Shown here: positions 3,101 to 28,522 of the stretch, piece after piece
Position numbering within the stretch: position 1 is the first letter of the stretch
Layout of the letters: each line of letters opens with the position of its first letter
DNA from: a virus
Virus record (IMG/VR): IMGVR_UViG_3300002835_011239
Coordinates: 1-31,821 of that record
Reading direction: 5' to 3' (one strand)
Length of the DNA: 31,821 bases
Translations under genes and position numbers: made by a program
Notes under the pieces: model-generated
What the model was told of the DNA's origin: nothing
The model's input: the letters and a program-made list of their open reading frames with translations, nothing else
Databases searched by the model: none

Positions 3101-4435
3101 AGCGAAGAGTATGCTAATGTTCCAGATTTTGTTAAGAATGATAATTTTGTGATAATGACGGGCGGTACGGATGAAGAAGGCAATTCTAAGTATATAACCA
3201 TCCCTAAAGCACACAACGTTAAGCCTATTGCAAATGCTACACAACAAATGATTGATTATTGGAGCGGTTCGAACCCACAAACGTTTAAGCAATTTGCTTT
3301 AAGCACATTAAGCTCAACCGTTCCACTCTTAGGCGAAGGAGACAGTTTCTCTAGCATTGCTTCTAATACAGTAGGCAGTAATTTACCGCAAGCTTTTAAA
3401 CCAGCTGTTCAACAAGTTACTAACTTTGATTTCTATAAAAACAAAGATATCGTTCCTTTTTACATGGAGAAAAAGCCACTAGAAGCACAGTTTAATAAAG
3501 CAACTCCAGACCTTTACAAGCGAGCAGGAGCATTAACAGGCACGAGCCCGCTAAGGTTACAGAACTTTGCTGAAAGCACATTGCCGATGGCGAAACAGGT
3601 CACTAATGCAATGGATTTAGCTACTTCTTTAAGAGATGGCGAGCCAATGAATCCTAATAAGATACCTGTTGTTAGAAGGTTTAGCGGATCATACTCAGGG
3701 TTTGATACTGAACGTCCTATTGATACTGGCACAGGTATAGGCGATAAGATTACAGAATTTTTAAAACCTAACTCACAAAGTAGTGCAGCGAGTAAAGAGC
3801 CTACTGTTTTAGATGAAAAAACAGTTCGTAAAGTAGATAATATTGCTAAAACGTATGGCTATGATTCATATTTACAAGAAAAACCTACAAAAGATTTAGA
3901 GCTACAGAAATACCAAAAATCTGTTTTATCAGACGCTAAAAAGGTCTTGAAAGATGAATATATGAAAGAAACCGATAAATTAGCATTGGTTCAAAGAATG
4001 GGGCTTGATGCAGAAGACGTTAAATACGATATTTTAGCGAATAGCGATACAGTTGATAGAGCGATTTATGTAAGAGATGAATTAGCGAAGGCTAAAACTT
4101 CAGAAGAAAGATACAAGCTTCTTACTGATTTGTACAATAACAAGTCTTTATCAGATAGCAGGGTTTTTACTGAATCAGTTGCAGAGGAATTAGGTCTTAA
4201 AGATGCATACGATTTAATTTATAAAGAGGCGAAGGCAAAGACTAAAAAAAGTACAAAAAAAATCAACACTCCGAAAATGAGTTTTAAAAAGACCAGTTTC
4301 AAGCCAGCTAGTCAGTCGGAAATGCCTAAACTTGGTATTAAGTTTGAAAAACCAAAAGGAATAAAAATTTCAGCAAATACGGATAAAGGTAAATCGGGTG
4401 TTATCCGTTTACAAAAGAAAGTGGCTAGTATATAG
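101..4435 (+). CDS. Large internal/ejection virion protein (LPD38-like)
   Basis: This 1444-residue protein is the largest in the window and has AAAGGAG seven bases before its ATG. The part at about residues 790-1020 (a WDYMRGMKDLIEYDR segment, then GRYSETPTRLGVYKRALE and RRGAKMSQLNAVVPFLNAS) resembles the large polyvalent protein-associated domain LPD38 of phage internal proteins. The N-terminal 250 residues are rich in glycine and alanine, and the last 130 are lysine-rich and probably disordered. It lies directly before the adaptor and nozzle genes, as internal or ejection proteins of short-tailed phages often do. By inference it is packaged and ejected with the DNA. No peptidase or lysozyme motif is evident. 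It ends in TAG, followed by a structured RNA element. Confidence 0.7.
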   Translation: MANAVTSLIGKLKKSVKDTADAYTTRVGANWQAIKGEFADAPAQVDRMIQGGNVYKDTFGYKNPQTLGQKTTNTGLGLLDNIGSASLRGVVNTGKGAYDLGRLGYGLATGNLANQPDFKTRSQYLDMAKTQFGDAMRFGGTTTPFRSVQALKTATPAIGLYSGLEGGLNVLNDKSGKSRGMKFAEGAVSGLERGVPMAGVGTVSNPYISKLMDKRLTTLGKLTIGVPANIAEGYAMNKSAGMDYTKEDALIDALVPGGLVLGKASLDQIKGAISQGVKDKKITKETAKQLDNYIMKNGRKYWAGKVNGQFATKDQLQVKTPYNTVKTYFTKQKISDINNGKVVEKLKPMKDSISNLSKTWQNMDLYDKTGKLLGNTEQFRKFLADNPELAAFAPVPEITTDESGKIQIKEGDYNLGQRAVAFGALKGVKSEAGQKLIKGIGDSLKRGSEGVQNLSKDFDKNFPEAMNIAMSASGNAPVKGVANYADDVLTVARKQIGEAGKVKLPIKQKVGQAWDTFYRDWVNRFQPVEDLVKNVEKAGKLSLMPENNPTIQIKRLLGAGGIAEYRHKTKLQPILDSVKNDISIEDFDVFLKAKRDLELAGRGIKGSDAGQANAVLQALRSKYNLPKIEEAATKLYQYQDEGLQMLRDGGFIDESVYNVIKDANKNYVPFQRVMDELDNYLGLPTSKLQNPSQPLKKIEGSNRAIYSPIESIIANTYKIESAVSKNKVAKSIANLGAIVPDTVKPVVKSGDNTISIWDGGKKAYFEIDADISQAVKGLNEEQMGTVLKILSAPASMLRQQATGRNIDFMIPNVVRDQFEAAINAKYGYVPFWDYMRGMKDLIEYDRTGSNPIVEGWIQNGGQMFFESMSGRKNIQKQIMDATTKKRLTRRLYDLAINGIEKVGRYSETPTRLGVYKRALEKTGNMAISAGESREATLDFARRGAKMSQLNAVVPFLNASIQGFDRMARSVKERPGKALTLLTIYGGVPALMTTLYNNLNFSEEYANVPDFVKNDNFVIMTGGTDEEGNSKYITIPKAHNVKPIANATQQMIDYWSGSNPQTFKQFALSTLSSTVPLLGEGDSFSSIASNTVGSNLPQAFKPAVQQVTNFDFYKNKDIVPFYMEKKPLEAQFNKATPDLYKRAGALTGTSPLRLQNFAESTLPMAKQVTNAMDLATSLRDGEPMNPNKIPVVRRFSGSYSGFDTERPIDTGTGIGDKITEFLKPNSQSSAASKEPTVLDEKTVRKVDNIAKTYGYDSYLQEKPTKDLELQKYQKSVLSDAKKVLKDEYMKETDKLALVQRMGLDAEDVKYDILANSDTVDRAIYVRDELAKAKTSEERYKLLTDLYNNKSLSDSRVFTESVAEELGLKDAYDLIYKEAKAKTKKSTKKINTPKMSFKKTSFKPASQSEMPKLGIKFEKPKGIKISANTDKGKSGVIRLQKKVASI

Positions 4436-4461
4436 TTAAGATATTACGACATTAGGACTTT

Positions 4462-4522
4462 GAGGATGGTAAATCCTCTGTAAGCCGTGAGAAAGCAGAA
4501 ATGCGAGTACCACGGCTTTTTT
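4462..4522 (+). terminator. Tandem hairpin with loop-E motif, copy 1
   Basis: A first hairpin (GAGGAT/ATCCTC, 4462-4478) is followed by a second at 4483-4517. The outer stem AGCCGTG/CACGGCT encloses a GAAA.../...AGTA internal loop, then an inner GCA/TGC stem with a GAAA tetraloop, and six T follow. GAA opposite AGUA is the sarcin-ricin (loop E) signature. It sits 20 bases before the adaptor start codon. The motif GATATTACGACAT (4440-4452) just upstream recurs before copy 2. Confidence 0.8.
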
Positions 4523-4543
4523 AGCACCTGAAAGTTAAAAAAT

Positions 4544-5248
4544 ATGAACGAAGAAACAGCAATGCAAATTGTATATAGAAGATGGCAGAACTCTGTGGAT
4601 TATCCGTCATCGACAGAAGAAGAATACCTATTAATTAGAGGTGCTTTGAATGATGGAATTGAGGCGTGGGGTGGAAGAGCGAAAGAAGAATCAATCAAGT
4701 GGAAAGAGCTTTTTGTTAATTTATCTGACGCCGCAACTGGCACGAAGACTACAACCGCAAACGATACCACTTACTCTATGCCTACTGATTTTGAAAGTAT
4801 TAGTTCTTGGGTGAAGATAACTGATTCAAGCAACCAGAGCATATATTATCCCTATAAAAAAGCAGATGATGTTATGCGGGCGTTAAAAGAAAATAGTTCT
4901 GAAAGATTTTTTTATATAACAGGTAACGATGGTGCGGGCTATACTTTGAATCTTAATCCTGCTCCTGCTAATACTGGGGATACAATTGGTTATTCATACT
5001 ACAAAAAACCAACTATTTTAGATGAAGAGACAGACACAATTGAGATGGCAAAACCTTATTTTGCTATTTATTTTGCTTTATCTGTGCTAAACGAAGAAGA
5101 AAGACCTGATTTAGCAGGCACATATGCTACAAAAGCTGCTTCGGTGATGGAACAGATGGTAATAGATAACGAAATCCCTCCTTTCAACACAAGCTATGGG
5201 CTAGGCGATTTAGATTACAACCTAACTGGTTCAGCATTTGGGAGGTAA
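4544..5248 (+). CDS. Head-tail adaptor protein (P22 gp4-like)
   Basis: This 234-residue protein has the look of the phage adaptor that docks under the portal ring. It has a helical N-terminus (ALNDGIEAWGGRAKE), a beta-rich middle containing the YSMPTDFESISSW stretch, and a C-terminal helical part (YFAIYFALSVLNEEERPDLA). The NDTTYSMPTDF pattern is common in gp4/gp11-type tail tube adaptors. It is followed after two bases by the nozzle gene, the usual order in podoviruses. The ATG lacks a strong ribosome site and lies just behind the loop-E hairpin, so translation may depend on that leader. The family assignment is by resemblance, not by a search. Confidence 0.7.
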   Translation: MNEETAMQIVYRRWQNSVDYPSSTEEEYLLIRGALNDGIEAWGGRAKEESIKWKELFVNLSDAATGTKTTTANDTTYSMPTDFESISSWVKITDSSNQSIYYPYKKADDVMRALKENSSERFFYITGNDGAGYTLNLNPAPANTGDTIGYSYYKKPTILDEETDTIEMAKPYFAIYFALSVLNEEERPDLAGTYATKAASVMEQMVIDNEIPPFNTSYGLGDLDYNLTGSAFGR

Positions 5249-5250
5249 CC

Positions 5251-7218
5251 ATGCGAATACCTAAGTTTTCGAATTACAAGGTTAATAAATATTTTGAGAA
5301 AATCGACGACTTTAGCGGTGGGTCGAATACTCTCACAAATCAAGCTAGGACTGAAAAGAAATATGCTATAGAAGTGAATAATTTATGGCAAGTACAGGAT
5401 AGAATTTGGCGGACAAGACCAGGAACAACATATTATGGTGAAGCAATTAGCGGTGTCACTAATATTGAGGGGGCAGAAAAATACCTAAAGGCGGACAAGA
5501 CGGTTGAAATTATAGCTATTGGAGACGACGGTAAAGCATATAAGTCATCTAATGGAGGGTCTTGGTCTGAAATTACTGGAGCTACCTTCACACCAGGGAA
5601 TAAGCCTTTCTTTTTACAGATCAATAGCAGATTATACATAACAACAGGTGTGGATGATCTTGCATATTACAACGGGTCGACATTAAACACATATACAGCT
5701 CTAAGCAATCCTAGCGCTGGAACAAGTGGTGGCAGGACTACGCTTACTTCCGGCAGTTACAACAACTATTACAGAGTGGTTGCAGTAAACGATATTGGTT
5801 ATACCGAGCCTAGCGCATCCCTCAATATAACAACGAATAAACACCGTGATAATTGGGCTAGCGGAGAAAATGTATATTTTACAATGCCTACGGTGGTAGG
5901 AGCTACAGGGTATCAAATTTTTTGGGGTGAGGTAGACGGCGAAGAAGTCTATTTAGGACAATTGGCTACGGGAGTAACGACTTTTACAGACGATGGAACG
6001 CTTGAGCCTAACCCATATATAGAAACACCTAGCGATAACACAACTGGTGCGCCTAAGTTCAGATCCATGGAAGTATCTGGGAACAGAATCTGGGCTACCT
6101 ACGATCCTGACAATGAATACAGGGTTTATTATTCAGGCACGGGTCAATATTTAGGATATTTTTCTCCTTTTTATGGTGGTGGATACATTGATCTTGAGAA
6201 AGGGGGTATAAACAAGCCTGTTTCAGTAGTCCACTATAGAGATGGTAAAGGCAACCCTTTAATCACGGTATTATGCTCAAGCCCTGACGGAATAGGGACT
6301 ATCTTTCAAATTGAATTAACAAGTTTAACGATTGGGGAGACGACTTTTACTGTGCCTGCTGCATATAAAATTGTTGGTTCAATAGGCGCAGATTCGCCTT
6401 ATGGTGTCATAAAAGCGGGTGATAACGTCTTGTTCCCTAACAAAAAAGGGGTATTCGCGTTAAGAAACAAAGCTCAAATATTTAATGTATTGGCGTCCGA
6501 TGATCTAACTGCCCCAATACGAAATAAATGGGAGTCCTTAAAAGGTGATAGATCTCCATATTTTGTTGCATATTATAAACCTCCTAGAGCGTTTTTTGCT
6601 GTATCAGAAGGCACAACTAATAATAAGGTCGCTATTTATGATTTTGAAAGAGGAAATTGGACGTGGTCTTGGGATTTAGCGGTTAAACAATTTTTCGAAT
6701 ATACAGGTAGCGATAAGATAACCAGATTCTTATTTGTTCCTGAAACTGGTAACAGACTGATCGAAATAACAGAGAACGCCTCAACTGATTTAGGACAAAG
6801 TTTTTATCAAAGCTATATTTCACCGTTAATTCCGGTAGATAAAGATGACACAGTCTTAGCTAAGGTCAAGGAAGTAATTTTCAGCGTGGGATCATTCAGA
6901 GGGACACTCGGTTTTGAAGTGCTAGGACTAGGGCGGGATAAGCAAATCTCTAGCCTCGGATCTTCTGAAAAATCAGCCACCGTAGGTACTAGCGGTTGGG
7001 ATGATGATTTATTCGACGAATTTTTGTTTGATGATACAAACGATGTTCCGTCCGTATTCACAGAAAGTACCACAAAGGTACGGGTGAAAGTAAATAAACG
7101 ATTGTATGGAATTCAATTTAAGTTGTCTTCAACGACTGCGGGAACTTCCATGGAATTGTTGTCCGTACAGGCTAAAGGTGTTTTACAACCAGCCAGAAGT
7201 CCTAGTTCATGGTCTTGA
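5251..7218 (+). CDS. Tail nozzle/hub protein (P22 gp10 or T7 gp12-like)
   Basis: The 655-residue product begins with a KIDDFSGGSNTLTNQ segment and then NNLWQVQDRIWRTRPGT, the start typical of phage tail nozzle or stabilisation proteins. Repeated beta blades follow (IIAIGDDGKAYKSS, RLYITTGVDDLAYYNG). A fibronectin-III-like module lies at about residues 165-250 (YYRVVAVNDIGYTEPS, VVGATGYQIFWGEV). The ribosome site GGGAGG lies in the end of the adaptor gene. By inference it forms the tip of the short tail and is where fibres attach. It ends in TGA within a promoter-like sequence. Confidence 0.75.
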   Translation: MRIPKFSNYKVNKYFEKIDDFSGGSNTLTNQARTEKKYAIEVNNLWQVQDRIWRTRPGTTYYGEAISGVTNIEGAEKYLKADKTVEIIAIGDDGKAYKSSNGGSWSEITGATFTPGNKPFFLQINSRLYITTGVDDLAYYNGSTLNTYTALSNPSAGTSGGRTTLTSGSYNNYYRVVAVNDIGYTEPSASLNITTNKHRDNWASGENVYFTMPTVVGATGYQIFWGEVDGEEVYLGQLATGVTTFTDDGTLEPNPYIETPSDNTTGAPKFRSMEVSGNRIWATYDPDNEYRVYYSGTGQYLGYFSPFYGGGYIDLEKGGINKPVSVVHYRDGKGNPLITVLCSSPDGIGTIFQIELTSLTIGETTFTVPAAYKIVGSIGADSPYGVIKAGDNVLFPNKKGVFALRNKAQIFNVLASDDLTAPIRNKWESLKGDRSPYFVAYYKPPRAFFAVSEGTTNNKVAIYDFERGNWTWSWDLAVKQFFEYTGSDKITRFLFVPETGNRLIEITENASTDLGQSFYQSYISPLIPVDKDDTVLAKVKEVIFSVGSFRGTLGFEVLGLGRDKQISSLGSSEKSATVGTSGWDDDLFDEFLFDDTNDVPSVFTESTTKVRVKVNKRLYGIQFKLSSTTAGTSMELLSVQAKGVLQPARSPSSWS

Positions 7219-7243
7219 TATTACGACATCTTTAGTATAGTAT
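7215..7243 (+). promoter_or_regulatory. Candidate sigma70 promoter before fibre gene
   Basis: TTGATA (7215-7220) is followed after 17 bases by TAGTAT; an alternative TATAGT gives a 15-base gap. It overlaps the nozzle stop codon and contains the shared ATTACGACAT motif. It would produce a leader that carries loop-E element copy 2. Confidence 0.4.
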
Positions 7244-7262
7244 TTTATTAGTTTGGGTTTTT

Positions 7263-7322
7263 AGGTGATAAACCTTTTGTAGCCCCTCAGAAAGCAGAAA
7301 TGCGAGTACGAGGGGCTTTTTT
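7263..7322 (+). terminator. Tandem hairpin with loop-E motif, copy 2
   Basis: Hairpin one is AGGT/ACCT (7263-7275). Hairpin two has outer stem AGCCCCTC/GAGGGGCT (7281-7317), a GAAA opposite AGTA internal loop, an inner GCA/TGC stem with a GAAA loop, and six T. Compared with copy 1 the outer stem changes from CCGTG to CCCCTC with the partner strand changing to match, which supports selection on the structure. Confidence 0.8.
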
Positions 7323-7348
7323 GTTACCTAAAACCATATTTTAGAAAA

Positions 7349-8401
7349 ATGAGTGCATATATAGGAACAAAAGCGGCAAGGAAATGGACTGGACAAATCG
7401 GCTCTGGAGGAGTCGCGGATAATTCAGTCACTACTGTACCTATCCAGTCAGCCACAGGCTTAACGAATGGTGAAGTATACCTTTTTTATGTGGACAGAGT
7501 AGACAGCAACGGAGTGAAAACTTCAAGCAAAGAGGAGTTAGTTAAAGGCACGTTGTCAGGCACAAATTTTACCTCTTGCACAAGAGGGGTTGCAGGCACA
7601 GCACAGTCACATTCGGCAGGTGCTGTTGTAGAAGTTTTAATGACAGCCACACACTGGAACGAACTAGTTGAAGCATTAGAGGTTGAACACGGCTCAGACG
7701 GCACACATGACAACACTAAGATCGCCTTGCTTGCAGGTACACAAACATTCACTGGCGCAAAAACTTTTACTGAATCAGTGACCGTTGCAGGTACTGCATC
7801 AAGCTCAGCATCTATCAAACTTGCAGAAGATACTGACAACGGAACAAGTTATGTAGAGCTTAAAGCTCCAGCAACGCTGAGTGCTAATAAAACATTCACT
7901 CTGCCAAGCGCTGATGGTACAGCGAATCAAGCGCTTGTTACGGATGGGGCAGGCGCGCTCTCTTTCTTAACTTTAGGTGGGAAAGTTCTTCAAATGAAGA
8001 TTTCAGGCTCACTAGGACAGGTTTCTTCTGCTTTAGACTCAACAGAGGTACATTGGGGAGAGGTTTCAATAACTCCAACATCTGCAACAAGCACTATTTA
8101 TGTTCTTTTGGCTGGATCTGGGTTGGATAACGGAGGCACAGGCAGATTAGAGCTTAAGTTGCGGTATTCGACCAGCTCAGGAGGCACAACAGGCACACAA
8201 TTGAGTATAGGCGCGGTTGCTGGTGATAGTACGGGTACTAATGGACTTTCTAGTATCGTTTTGTTAGGGAGTGTTGCTTTGGGTAATACTACTCTTACCT
8301 ATTTTAAGGCGACAGGTCTACATAACGATACTTCAACAACGTGGTATGTGGGACGTTATTCGTCCCAATCAAATATTTTATTGGTGGAGGTCGGAGCCTA
8401 G
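7349..8401 (+). CDS. Tail fibre protein
   Basis: A 350-residue protein of low charge, rich in Ser, Thr and Gly. Residues 1-110 form a baseplate- or fibre-anchor-like region (GVADNSVTTVPIQSATGLTN, then FTSCTRGVAGTAQSHSAG) seen in many phage fibres. Residues 115-205 carry repeats common in fibre shafts (GTQTFTGAKTFTESVTVAG, NKTFTLPSADGTANQALV). The C-terminal 140 residues look like a beta-rich receptor-binding head. By inference it attaches to the nozzle and contacts the host surface. The gene stands alone behind loop-E element 2, between the nozzle and the lysis cassette. Confidence 0.75.
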   Translation: MSAYIGTKAARKWTGQIGSGGVADNSVTTVPIQSATGLTNGEVYLFYVDRVDSNGVKTSSKEELVKGTLSGTNFTSCTRGVAGTAQSHSAGAVVEVLMTATHWNELVEALEVEHGSDGTHDNTKIALLAGTQTFTGAKTFTESVTVAGTASSSASIKLAEDTDNGTSYVELKAPATLSANKTFTLPSADGTANQALVTDGAGALSFLTLGGKVLQMKISGSLGQVSSALDSTEVHWGEVSITPTSATSTIYVLLAGSGLDNGGTGRLELKLRYSTSSGGTTGTQLSIGAVAGDSTGTNGLSSIVLLGSVALGNTTLTYFKATGLHNDTSTTWYVGRYSSQSNILLVEVGA

Positions 8402-12571: not shown

Positions 12572-13834
12572 TTAAGCCTCCAACGTTAAACCGAGATATT
12601 CATCTTTAGTCATAGAGAGTGACCATGCTTGCGCATAATCAGCATCATTTTTGCTACCTGCTTCCTGATCGACGCATTTCACATATACTCTCCCTGTGGA
12701 TGGGCAAGTGTACTTTAAGAAGTATTCGGTTTGCGGAAATATATCTTTGACCTCATAAAGCTCATTACCTCTTTTTGATTCATTCAACTTTATGGCTTTA
12801 GCCTCTGCCAACAGCTGTTCAGGGTCATATAGTTTTAAGGCTACCATTCTTTGCTCCATATTTTCCAGTGCCATGATCTCTTTGAAAGTTAATTTTTTTG
12901 ACACAACCTTTTTCCACAAATCCTCGTTAAAATACACACCCCATAGATAATGCTGTTTATATCCGTCCGCAAACTCAATCGCAACTTCTTTTTCAGAATG
13001 CAGCCTTTTAGTACCCTTTACTTCTGTGCGATTAACTTTACTAGGGAGACCGCATACAACACATAAACCATCAAGCTGAATCATATCGTAAATACCAGAC
13101 GTAATCAGATTTCTAAACTTTCCAAAGTTATCGTTTGCTAGTTCCACCCCTATTTTCTCAAAGCCGTCGTAAAAAGCCACCCACCCAAAATCAGAAACAT
13201 TCCCGAAAAGGGCAAAATTAAAGAATTCCAATTGTTGAGTCCCGACTTGATTCCAGACTTGATCCCCGACTTGATCCCCGACTTGAGTCCCGACTTCATT
13301 CCCGACCTGATTCCAGACTTGATCCCAGACTTGATTCCAGACTTGATTCTCGACTTGAGTCCTGACTTGAGTCCCGACTTGAGTCCTGACTTGATTCCTG
13401 ACTTGAGTCCTGACTTGATCCCCGACTTGATTCCAGACTTGATCCCCGACCTGATTCCAGACTTGATCCCAGACTTGATTCCAGACTTGATTCCTGACTT
13501 GAGTCCTGACTTGATCCCCGACTTGATTCCAGACTTGATCCCCGACTTGATTCCTGACTCGATTCCAGACTTCATTGTAGATTTGATCCTCGACTTCCTT
13601 ACCTGTTAGACCTGCGGTCTTCATCATATTCACTGCATACTGAATCCCCAGTGGTGAATCCACGAATATGATTATTGGCTTCTTTAGGTTACAAAACGAA
13701 TATAACCAGTCTATACCCTTCGTTGCTTCGGCTATGTCAACCTCTTTATTGCAATCAAAAATTAGGGATAGCCAGCCATCCCTAACTTCAGCTATTTTTT
13801 CAATTTGTTGCCGAGTAAGTTTTTCAATTTTCAT
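12572..13834 (-). CDS. DUF6745-like protein with tetrapeptide repeats
   Basis: A 420-residue protein. Residues 1-85 hold an N-terminal domain (GWLSLIFDCNKEVD, IIFVDSPLGIQYAV). Residues 86-200 are about 28 tetrapeptides of the form [N/D/T]-Q-V-[W/G/R]. Residues 201-420 contain WVAFYDGFEKIGVEL, RLHSEKEVAIEFADGYKQHY and LWGVYFNEDLW, then a final AQAWSLSMTKDEY. This order matches the widespread bacterial family I know as DUF6745, whose members carry GDQV-type repeats. Function is unknown. The next gene upstream (three bases away) is its usual small partner. The repeat probably forms a long amphipathic helix or solenoid. Confidence 0.75.
   Translation of the reverse strand: MKIEKLTRQQIEKIAEVRDGWLSLIFDCNKEVDIAEATKGIDWLYSFCNLKKPIIIFVDSPLGIQYAVNMMKTAGLTGKEVEDQIYNEVWNRVRNQVGDQVWNQVGDQVRTQVRNQVWNQVWDQVWNQVGDQVWNQVGDQVRTQVRNQVRTQVGTQVRTQVENQVWNQVWDQVWNQVGNEVGTQVGDQVGDQVWNQVGTQQLEFFNFALFGNVSDFGWVAFYDGFEKIGVELANDNFGKFRNLITSGIYDMIQLDGLCVVCGLPSKVNRTEVKGTKRLHSEKEVAIEFADGYKQHYLWGVYFNEDLWKKVVSKKLTFKEIMALENMEQRMVALKLYDPEQLLAEAKAIKLNESKRGNELYEVKDIFPQTEYFLKYTCPSTGRVYVKCVDQEAGSKNDADYAQAWSLSMTKDEYLGLTLEA
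13238..13575 (-). repeat. 12-bp tandem repeat array inside the DUF6745-like gene
   Basis: About 28 imperfect copies of a 12-base unit (GACTTGATTCCA type on the + strand), each encoding one tetrapeptide. Because the unit is a multiple of three, other frames stay open and yield long spurious frames on both strands. Unit variants alternate rather than form one homogeneous block, which suggests old duplications with shuffling rather than recent slippage. Confidence 0.9.
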
Positions 13835-24129: not shown

Positions 24130-24500
24130 TGGACAAACCTGCCAGCCATTACACAAGACAAAACAAACGTGCGATAGATGCTCAAGAAGCTATTATTGAG
24201 AAATTGGGATATGGTGTGCTTAATGTAGAGGTTGAGTTTCATAACAAACGTGTTGTCAAACAAACCTTTTATGGGAAAGAACGCAAGAAGTATAACAAAG
24301 AAAACTATGAAGATGCACTAAAAGATATGCTAAAACGTGTAAAACAAAGCATGGATCGTAAAGAATCAACAGAGATTGTGTTTCAAGTGAATATACGGCA
24401 AGGCAGACCCGAGCAAGTATTGTGGTTGTCTAACCATACCATAAATTACGACGTTGACAATAGCCCGCAAAACGTGCAAGATAGTAGTATAACAAAATAA
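24126..24500 (+). CDS. Hypothetical protein
   Basis: A 124-residue basic protein (HYTRQNKRAIDAQEAIIEKL; EVEFHNKRVVKQTFYGKERK). Alternating strands with many charges suggest a small alpha/beta domain. Start overlaps the terminase stop (TGATG). It lies between terminase and the loop-E element before the homing endonuclease. No family recognised. Confidence 0.6.
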   Translation: MMDKPASHYTRQNKRAIDAQEAIIEKLGYGVLNVEVEFHNKRVVKQTFYGKERKKYNKENYEDALKDMLKRVKQSMDRKESTEIVFQVNIRQGRPEQVLWLSNHTINYDVDNSPQNVQDSSITK

Positions 24501-24503
24501 TCG

Positions 24504-24574
24504 GTTTATTTTTAAACGAGTTTAGAGATACAAGCCGTGTGAAAGTTCTTCGGAACGAGTAGCACGGCTTTTTT
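24504..24574 (+). terminator. Tandem hairpin with loop-E motif, copy 3
   Basis: Hairpin one is GTTTA/TAAAC with a TTTT loop. Hairpin two has outer stem AGCCGTG/CACGGCT, the GAAA opposite AGTA internal loop, an inner stem GTTC/GAAC closed by a UUCG tetraloop, and six T. The inner stem and tetraloop differ from copies 1 and 2, yet the internal loop is unchanged. It ends 26 bases before the homing endonuclease start. Confidence 0.8.
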
Positions 24575-24600: not shown

Positions 24601-25071
24601 ATGATGAGACTTATGTTATCGGGGGAAGAAATACTATTAGACAATGAAGACTTGGACTTATTCAATGCATACAGTTGGTGGGTTTTAAGAGTTAAAAATC
24701 TTAAATACATTGTCGGTAGGCATGGTAAATCAAAGGGATGTCGGGTGCTTTTTCATAGAGTATTGATGCCAGAGGCTGAGGTAGTTGACCATATCAATGG
24801 GAACGGGTTGGATAATAGGAAAGACAATCTTCGGGGGTGTTCTCATGCAGAAAATATGAGAAACAGAAATATATCCAGGAAAAATAAAAGTGGTTTTAAA
24901 GGGGTTTACTGGCATAAAGCAGATAAGCTATGGAAAGCTCAGCTAAAATATAACGGCAAAAGGGTATTGGATCAGAGTTGTAAAAGTGCTGAGGAAGCTG
25001 CGAGGCTTTACGATAAGTTTGCATTAAAGTATCACGGTGAATTCGCGAAGACAAATTTTAATTATGCCTAA
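24601..25071 (+). CDS. HNH-AP2 homing endonuclease
   Basis: A 156-residue freestanding endonuclease. The HNH part reads VLFHRVLMPEAEVVDHINGN then LDNRKDNLRGCSHAENMRNR, with the catalytic-type His in VDHING. The C-terminal AP2-like DNA-binding domain reads SGFKGVYWHKADKLWKAQL and AARLYDKFALKYHG, ending in FAKTNFNYA. Such selfish genes spread by cutting genomes that lack them. It sits between loop-E element 3 and the portal gene, whose ATG overlaps its last codons, so the portal may have adapted to it. Confidence 0.85.
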   Translation: MMRLMLSGEEILLDNEDLDLFNAYSWWVLRVKNLKYIVGRHGKSKGCRVLFHRVLMPEAEVVDHINGNGLDNRKDNLRGCSHAENMRNRNISRKNKSGFKGVYWHKADKLWKAQLKYNGKRVLDQSCKSAEEAARLYDKFALKYHGEFAKTNFNYA

Positions 25072-27239: not shown

Positions 27240-27450
27240 GGTGTTTGGTCTAACTCAAGATCAGGTCGAAGAATTAAGGAAGAATGCGATTGAAAGATTA
27301 CAGAGATCAGAAAAAAGGTGGGTTCAGCGTGGACCATATTTAGTATGCATAACTGATAGTGGAGAAGTAGCAACGCATATCGGGACAGCAAAAATCCTTG
27401 TGGGACTTGACGATAAAGGTAATCCGATGTTCAAACAAGTGAATTATTGA
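27202..27450 (+). CDS. Hypothetical protein
   Basis: An 82-residue protein. A helical N-terminus (DQVEELRKNAIERLQRSE) leads to a beta-rich end (PYLVCITDSGEVATHIGTA). It overlaps the preceding gene by 38 bases; an internal start might be used instead, but the next Met is near the C-terminus. Its stop lies within the -35 of a promoter candidate. Confidence 0.55.
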   Translation: MEHIKQSKPTENEVFGLTQDQVEELRKNAIERLQRSEKRWVQRGPYLVCITDSGEVATHIGTAKILVGLDDKGNPMFKQVNY

Positions 27451-27475
27451 CATACATTACGAGGTTTGGTAGATT
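27447..27475 (+). promoter_or_regulatory. Candidate promoter for scaffold/capsid operon
   Basis: TTGACA (27447-27452) and TAGATT (27470-27475) lie 17 bases apart. The -35 is a perfect consensus match and overlaps the stop of the gene before. The spacer contains ATTACGA, shared with the sequences before loop-E copies 1 and 2. TTGACA also pairs with TGTCAA at 27478. Confidence 0.6.
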
Positions 27476-27498
27476 AGTGTCAAATTGAATAGCTTTTT

Positions 27499-27568
27499 GC
27501 TAGCTGAGGTTAGCATTTGTAGCCGTGAGAAAACGAGACGAAAGTTTCGCCAGTATCACGGCTTTTTT
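27499..27568 (+). terminator. Tandem hairpin with loop-E motif, copy 4
   Basis: Hairpin one is GCTA/TAGC (27499-27514). Hairpin two has outer stem AGCCGTGA/TCACGGCT, GAA opposite AGTA, a longer inner stem CGAGAC/GTTTCG with a GAAA loop, and six T. It is followed by another hairpin CTTGTAGA/TCTACAGG (27593-27617), giving the scaffold gene a leader of about 180 bases behind the promoter at 27447. Confidence 0.8.
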
Positions 27569-27658: not shown

Positions 27659-28522
27659 ATGGAGTCAAAATTAGTTCTTTCAAATATGGATCAAACCAAA
27701 AATCAGGCAATAAATGACCAGGGCGTAGAGAAAACCCAAGATGTGATGCCGACATCTGAATCAAGCGTAGTTGAACCACAGATCGATCAATCTGTAGAAG
27801 ATACAAACGTAGAAGAATCTGAATCTAGTTCTAGTGCTAAGGAATTAGAGGATGCAGAACGTAAACCAACAAGATTGGAGCGGAATTTAGGCAAAAAGCT
27901 ACAGGAAAACAAAGCTCTAAAAGAACGTATTAATCAATTAGAAGGAAAAGCTGATGATGTATACGACTTTTTAGGCGTGAAACCTAAAGCTGACGAGATG
28001 GAAAACTTGTTTACGGAGGAAGAGCTTGCCACAGGTGAGATTTCTAACCCAAGAGATTTTCAGAATCGTATAGCACAAATGGTCGAACAGCGTGCTACTA
28101 AGAAAGTTGAAGAAGTTTTATCAGGAAGAGAGCGGGCTAGTAAGTACCGTGAGACAGTCGAAACTCATACAAAAGAACTGGATGATCTACTAACGGAGAT
28201 GCCAGAACTACAGGATGAAGAAACGGCTAGAGCTTTTGTTGAAACTTATGAAGACATAAATTATTTAGGTGATAGGTTCATTGGACGTGTATCCCCTAAA
28301 AAAATAGCAGAACGTATGTTTGGCACAGCCAAGAGAATAGCCGATCGTAAAACAACTGAGGTAGCCAAACAGGTTGCACAGATGAAAGACGATCAAGCAA
28401 TCGTGTCTGGTGCTGATATATCGAGAAGCAGTGGAGGTCTTACGGACTTATACAACAAAGCTATTGAGACGGGCACAGACGATGATTGGGCTAAATATTT
28501 CAAGGCTAAAAACAGTAAATGA
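27659..28522 (+). CDS. Putative scaffolding protein
   Basis: A 287-residue, strongly acidic and Glu/Lys-rich protein just before the major capsid gene. The N-terminal 65 residues are disordered and Ser/Glu/Gln-rich. A coiled coil follows (ERNLGKKLQENKALKERINQ), then helices through to the C-terminus. These traits and the position match phage scaffolding proteins that guide procapsid assembly and then leave. GAGGATG lies upstream of the ATG; an internal Met at 27686 is an alternative. Confidence 0.75.
   Translation: MESKLVLSNMDQTKNQAINDQGVEKTQDVMPTSESSVVEPQIDQSVEDTNVEESESSSSAKELEDAERKPTRLERNLGKKLQENKALKERINQLEGKADDVYDFLGVKPKADEMENLFTEEELATGEISNPRDFQNRIAQMVEQRATKKVEEVLSGRERASKYRETVETHTKELDDLLTEMPELQDEETARAFVETYEDINYLGDRFIGRVSPKKIAERMFGTAKRIADRKTTEVAKQVAQMKDDQAIVSGADISRSSGGLTDLYNKAIETGTDDDWAKYFKAKNSK

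Follow-up and report, generated by a model that had tools for sequence, protein, structure and literature searches.

The four loop-E hairpins of the uncultured tailed phage analysed here (c1 to c4) are probably promoter-proximal intrinsic terminators, that is, attenuators or late-gene gates in the 5' leaders of late gene blocks, as judged from their sequence and setting. The window, i.e. the whole stretch analysed, is the 31,821-nt IMG/VR record IMGVR_UViG_3300002835_011239, a 31.8-kb phage fragment that has one gene running off its end and is probably incomplete. A cassette made up of a promoter-like site and, at most 80 bases further on, a hairpin is present four times among its late genes and resembles an inbuilt gate for each gene block. 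Promoter-proximal terminators with a conserved loop-E core have so far been found in this virus, a single relative and perhaps one phage unrelated to them. The observations at sequence level comprise hairpins, covariation, U-tracts, promoter matches, spacing and the distance to the start codon. An earlier note had called the copies recurrent terminator-like elements, which captured the hairpins and missed the promoter and start-codon context; "promoter-proximal leader terminator" is the better label, since a sigma70-like promoter lies just 5' and a start codon shortly 3'.

All four copies with the architecture given in the earlier note are present in the window. On the + strand, the main hairpins, each ending in U6, occupy 4482..4522 (c1), 7281..7322 (c2), 24532..24574 (c3, with a UUCG cap) and 27520..27568 (c4, with a 6-bp inner stem and a GAAA cap), and they score 58.0, 53.2, 46.4 and 41.3 bits, respectively, with model R1. 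The outer stem is AAGCCGTG/CACGGCTT in c1, c3 and, nearly so, in c4, and AGCCCCTC/GAGGGGCT in c2. Inner stems are GCA/TGC (c1, c2), GTTC/GAAC (c3) and CGAGAC/GTTTCG (c4), closed by GAAA tetraloops in c1, c2 and c4 and by UUCG in c3. The internal loop reads GAAA/GAGTA in c1, c2 and c3 and GAAA/CAGTA in c4, with a GAA/AGTA core identical in 4/4. The signature of the sarcin-ricin or loop-E (bulged-G) motif is 5'-AGUA-3' opposite 5'-GAA-3' with flanking helices, and at the sequence level c1 to c4 all carry AGUA opposite GAA between two helices. Unlike in the 23S sarcin-ricin loop, the strand order is reversed and the tetraloop lies 3-6 bp away, so mimicry of that loop is unlikely and was rejected as an explanation. 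The sequence GGCTTTTTT occurs five times in the window compared to 0.75 expected, a count reached in 0/100 shuffles, and its four + strand occurrences all fall inside c1 to c4. No Rfam 15 family match overlapped the elements, even at E values up to 1.

The predicted folds of c1 to c4 are stable and GC-rich (-14.9 to -20.6 kcal/mol), and the U-tract follows the stem directly. As in intrinsic (Rho-independent) terminators, a GC-rich stem abuts six or seven U residues, namely U6 in c1 to c4 and in an element of a different phage (L196) and U7 in that of a divergent relative (L033); the stem likewise abuts the U-tract in a more distant relative (L239). Unlike in ordinary intrinsic terminators, the hairpin is interrupted here by a bulged-G internal loop. 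Each leader also holds a small hairpin between the predicted start and the main hairpin, located on the + strand at 4462..4478 (c1, GAGGAT/ATCCTC, shuffle p 0.038), 7255..7275 (c2, weak, p 0.13), 24507..24530 (c3, A+T-rich, p 0.20) and 27498..27515 (c4, p 0.033). Position 4462, previously taken as the start of the first element, is thus the start of this small hairpin. The claim that such a hairpin is shared holds for its presence in every copy and is weaker statistically: with values of 0.057 and 0.013 for the remaining two of six sequences, single-locus shuffle p ranges over 0.01-0.2, so support is modest and collective.

Next, we examined the sequences upstream of the hairpins. Sigma70-like promoters lie on the + strand at 4408..4436 for c1 (TTTACA-17-TATAGT; 10/12 matches, p=0.005), 7215..7243 for c2 (TTGATA-17-TAGTAT; p=0.025), 24454..24482 for c3 (TTGACA-17-CAAGAT; p=0.035, in the 3' end of a 124-aa gene) and 27447..27475 for c4 (TTGACA-17-TAGATT with TG; p=0.0025), the p values being derived from a weighted score against the window background. 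The site of c4 is the best + strand promoter of the window and that of c1 the second best; a consensus scan likewise placed sites with 9-10/12 matches just 5' of c1, c2 and c4. The matches of c2, c3 and the L033 element (p 0.017) are moderate only (p 0.017-0.035). Combined over c1 to c4 and L033, the promoter p value is 2.4e-6 (Fisher), calculated with the E. coli consensus. The spacer measures 17 nt in 5/5 of these promoter-like sites, and the distance from the -35 box to the hairpin is 74, 66, 78, 73 and 64 nt (c1, c2, c3, c4 and L033, respectively). As controls, plain terminators 3' of capsid genes in LUZ24-like phages gave promoter p values of 0.5-0.9, and other late-gene starts in the window gave 0.1-0.7.

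The start codon of the gene behind c1 (4544..5248, +; an SU10-adaptor-like protein of 234 aa) lies 22 nt after U6. Those behind c2 (7349..8401, +; a 350-aa protein of unknown family) and c3 (24601..25071, +; an HNH/AP2 endonuclease of 156 aa) both lie 27 nt on, and that behind c4 (27659..28522, +) lies 91 nt on and opens a 287-aa protein (by position the putative scaffold) encoded 5' of the major capsid gene. The elements therefore have the layout of leader terminators, with a promoter match (consensus only) on the 5' side, a gene on the 3' side and, for c1 to c3, no room for a promoter in between. The earlier statement that they precede structural genes is loose for c3: the endonuclease gene sits between the 124-aa gene and the portal gene, and c3 may have arrived with it, since its start codon is directly behind the element. 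Distances of 22, 27 and 27 nt being too short for another promoter, the mRNA of the genes behind c1 to c3 must pass the terminator whether it begins at the near promoter or farther upstream, so two products are predicted per site, a terminated leader and a read-through mRNA.

We infer the following course of initiation, termination and possible control from these sequence features. RNA polymerase would start at the sigma70-like promoter and make a leader of 73-87 nt in the window (71 nt in L033), containing first the small and then the loop-E hairpin. Many complexes would stop at U6, and those that read through would transcribe the gene that starts 22-27 nt further on (91 nt in the case of c4). 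The loop-E hairpin would also dampen read-through from the upstream block. In this way each cassette would set the level of its gene block and might switch it, as attenuators and lambda pR'-tR' do. How polymerase gets past a terminator placed just behind its own promoter has to be explained, and no antitermination gene was recognised in the 31.8-kb window; partial read-through would suffice, and a controlling factor is conceivable. Phage LUZ100 sets a precedent, since read-through of its internal terminators is extensive and its capsid gene is locally controlled (PMC10134795). We found no antiterminator pairing common to all copies and hence not the alternative fold of a classical attenuator. 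Pairing of the upstream with the downstream flank into an enclosing stem of the read-through RNA was seen for c1 (4455-4545, duplex p 0.05) and c2 (7255-7340, duplex p 0.014); it was rejected as a shared antiterminator, being confined to these two and missing in c3, c4 and L033.

The foremost alternative is that c1 to c4 are leaky intrinsic terminators of the plain type that lie between late genes and only tune read-through from upstream, with incidental promoter matches and the loop E as an inherited decoration. Plain terminators that immediately precede a start codon and lack a promoter match are indeed common in LUZ24-like relatives (L325, L327, L329), and read-through can be extensive in phage operons, as in phage LUZ100, where many internal terminators are read through and the capsid gene is surrounded by a local promoter and terminator (PMC10134795). 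It is hard to reconcile with promoter matches at 5/5 elements of the lineage, near-constant spacing and a p value of 2e-6, and we regard it as unlikely.

To assess constraint on the RNA, six sequences (c1 to c4, L033 and L196) were aligned, which is few for covariation. In this alignment, each of the 11/11 stem pairs has both partners altered in one or more sequences, and 95.5% of cells pair, compared to 60.8% after shuffling and no more than 50% in slid controls. Apart from the U-tract, only the eight letters of the core (GAAA and AGTA) are invariant. These values support the previously proposed compensatory change of stems around a fixed loop-E core as well as constraint at the RNA level. 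L033 and L196 were found with queries that contained the core, so the invariance of the loop rests mainly on the four window copies; the stems and contexts of the other two are largely independent evidence.

A further record (L005) represents the same virus. The L033 element was found with the pattern AGAAAGC-N6-GCGAGTA, leaving outer stem and U-tract unconstrained, and precedes homologues of the 234-aa and 655-aa proteins of the window (25-31% identity), with one small gene between. Around the same core it has AGCCCGC/GCGGGTT, a GCC-GAAA-GGC inner hairpin and U7, and it has in common with c1 TAGGACTTT upstream and CCTRAAA downstream; recurrence before a homologous gene is thereby supported for a divergent relative. 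L196 carries CCGGGTGG/CCACCCGG, the core, CCC-UUCG-GGG and U6, followed by AAGGAGG and ATG. Its query contained core and U-tract, leaving only its stems and context as independent; it has no promoter-like site (p 0.72) and may be convergent. Protein homology led to two further loci (L239/L240), where a plain 21-bp terminator precedes the homologous genes. In L239, TTGACA-17-TAAAAT (promoter p 0.005) is followed by a small hairpin, the 21-bp terminator, U7 and then directly ATG. Since L239, a positional homologue, lacks the loop, it is not essential to the job of the site across the wider group. Loop E is best read as a lineage-specific design.

Model R1 recovers 6/6 aligned sequences at 41-58 bits and, on whole records as positive controls, L033 at E 1e-13 and L196 at E 1e-11. 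It returned nothing at E <0.01 in 50 other virus records, and one borderline hit with mismatched stems and no convincing copy in 745 bacterial genomes from three phyla, a search whose stricter filters could miss weak matches. Of the matches from pattern scans of the viral and genome collections, only those in L033, L196 and this virus were accepted as real loop-E terminators. A general bacterial class of loop-E terminators was rejected, as none of 38 pattern matches in the genome collection was a loop-E terminator with paired stems and model R1 gave just the one borderline hit, and matches within genes, e.g. in L339, were discarded as coding coincidence. No such element was present in the stretches examined of the closest capsid relatives (L333 and L334, 54% and 49%), the closest annotated relatives of L196 and L239 (L411-L413) contained no loop-E terminators, and blastn gave no convincing homologues in annotated phages. 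A comparable cassette lies at 8136-8265 of a Manatee Spring relative (L328, MW202481), where a near-perfect promoter (TTGACA-18-TATAAT), a small hairpin and a terminator with U8 are followed by an ATG at most 16 nt on. The gene immediately before it is annotated as antitermination protein Q, for which Pfam gives no support beyond a sub-threshold match to sigma region 4.

The most likely role of the loop-E core is to allow rapid folding into a compact, stacked hairpin beneath a GNRA or UUCG cap; binding of a factor to the core is a minority possibility. The roles proposed earlier for the loop, i.e. contact with a protein or the ribosome, processing or antitermination, are not established, and a special role such as protein contact or antitermination is possible but unproven. 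The stronger version, in which the core docks a phage or host factor or RNA polymerase and thereby switches the terminators, giving a distributed, loop-E-dependent antitermination switch for late blocks, appears distinctly unlikely. Four promoter-linked terminators and one in a relative keep the sequence of a defined RNA 3D motif while their stems change, and terminators are usually treated as featureless stems. Should the loop matter, the cassette would amount to a compact module controlling late transcription in the phage; should the loop be irrelevant, the copies would still offer a clean natural series on how internal loops affect termination.

A second motif accompanies the promoters. TTACGAC occurs on the + strand at 4444..4450, near the c1 promoter, at 7221-7227 for c2, overlapping the promoter spacer, and at 24446-24452, just before the c3 promoter, and TTACGAG at 27457-27463, within the c4 promoter spacer. 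These are the only four + strand copies of TTACGAS (TTACGAC/G) in the window, all just upstream of c1 to c4; the corresponding L033 motif is TTACAAG. The motif was chosen by eye after viewing the copies, so its significance is only approximate. As a fixed-position promoter box it was rejected, since its location shifts between 8 nt upstream of the -35 box and a point past the -10 box, and it might be a site for a regulator or factor.

Such a site recalls phage lambda, whose pR'-tR' leader is about 194 nt. As at pR'-tR', a late promoter is closely followed by a terminator before structural genes, and TTACGA near or within the promoters could be the site of a factor; unlike in lambda, there are four cassettes rather than one and the leader is shorter. 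Lambda-type Q is reported to bind DNA at a site within the late promoter, which renders polymerase resistant to terminators (PMC6606751). HK022 putL is an RNA of ~70 nt with two stem-loops, located behind PL and with non-canonical pairs in stem II (PMC9378689). In gross layout, on which the comparison rests, our leaders resemble this two-stem-loop RNA behind a promoter; put RNA differs in its early promoter, whereas here late genes, a small first hairpin and U6 directly after stem II are found. Typical put RNAs also have a conserved sequence and contact the beta' zinc-binding domain. We treat LUZ100, lambda Q and HK022 putL as layout analogies.

The putL-like layout, the invariance of the loop-E core within diverging stems and TTACGAS at 4/4 promoter regions as a potential DNA site of a factor would suit an elongation-control or antitermination RNA. 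In this reading the two-hairpin leader and its non-canonical loop, or a factor bound to loop E, would modify polymerase so that it passes U6 and later terminators, with an effect like that of HK022 put RNA or of lambda Q at pR'. This reading is at odds with the terminator-like U6 directly abutting the hairpin, the loop-free L239 and the varying position of TTACGA relative to the promoter. No cognate factor was found, and neither Pfam nor PHROGs revealed a Q homologue among the proteins tested from this probably incomplete record. Overall, we consider this reading improbable.

Closely spaced promoters and terminators are also the layout of small-RNA genes, and c1 to c4 could be four phage RNAs (71-87 nt) acting in trans, e.g. 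as decoys of RNA-binding proteins, with the loop-E hairpin as terminator; as the leaders show no conservation between copies in their 5' halves and 3/4 copies lie at most 27 nt from a start codon, this is very improbable. Least probable of all are mRNA 5'-end stabilisers or translation leaders, with a hairpin and U-rich stretch before weak Shine-Dalgarno starts: the genes behind c1 to c3 have no clear Shine-Dalgarno sequence, yet a U-tract that always abuts a GC-rich stem is a signature of termination that translation leaders do not require.

As to the remaining gene content, PHROGs matches include terminase, portal (head-tail connector) and capsid, and the capsid protein shares 32-39% identity with its counterparts in the phages of the annotated collection that match best, LUZ24/tf-like podoviruses among them. 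The window also encodes a phage tmRNA on the - strand at 18534-18801 (Rfam RF00023, 87.6 bits, E 6e-33; no ARAGORN call), whose resume frame, read by eye, is ANFITIEEYAFA-stop, beside a tRNA-Tyr (18452-18527) and a probable further tRNA (18345-18435). Finally, an array of 12-bp units at 13175-13654 lies inside a 420-aa minus-strand gene with repeats like NQVWNQVGDQV, and overlapping frames are open across it on both strands.
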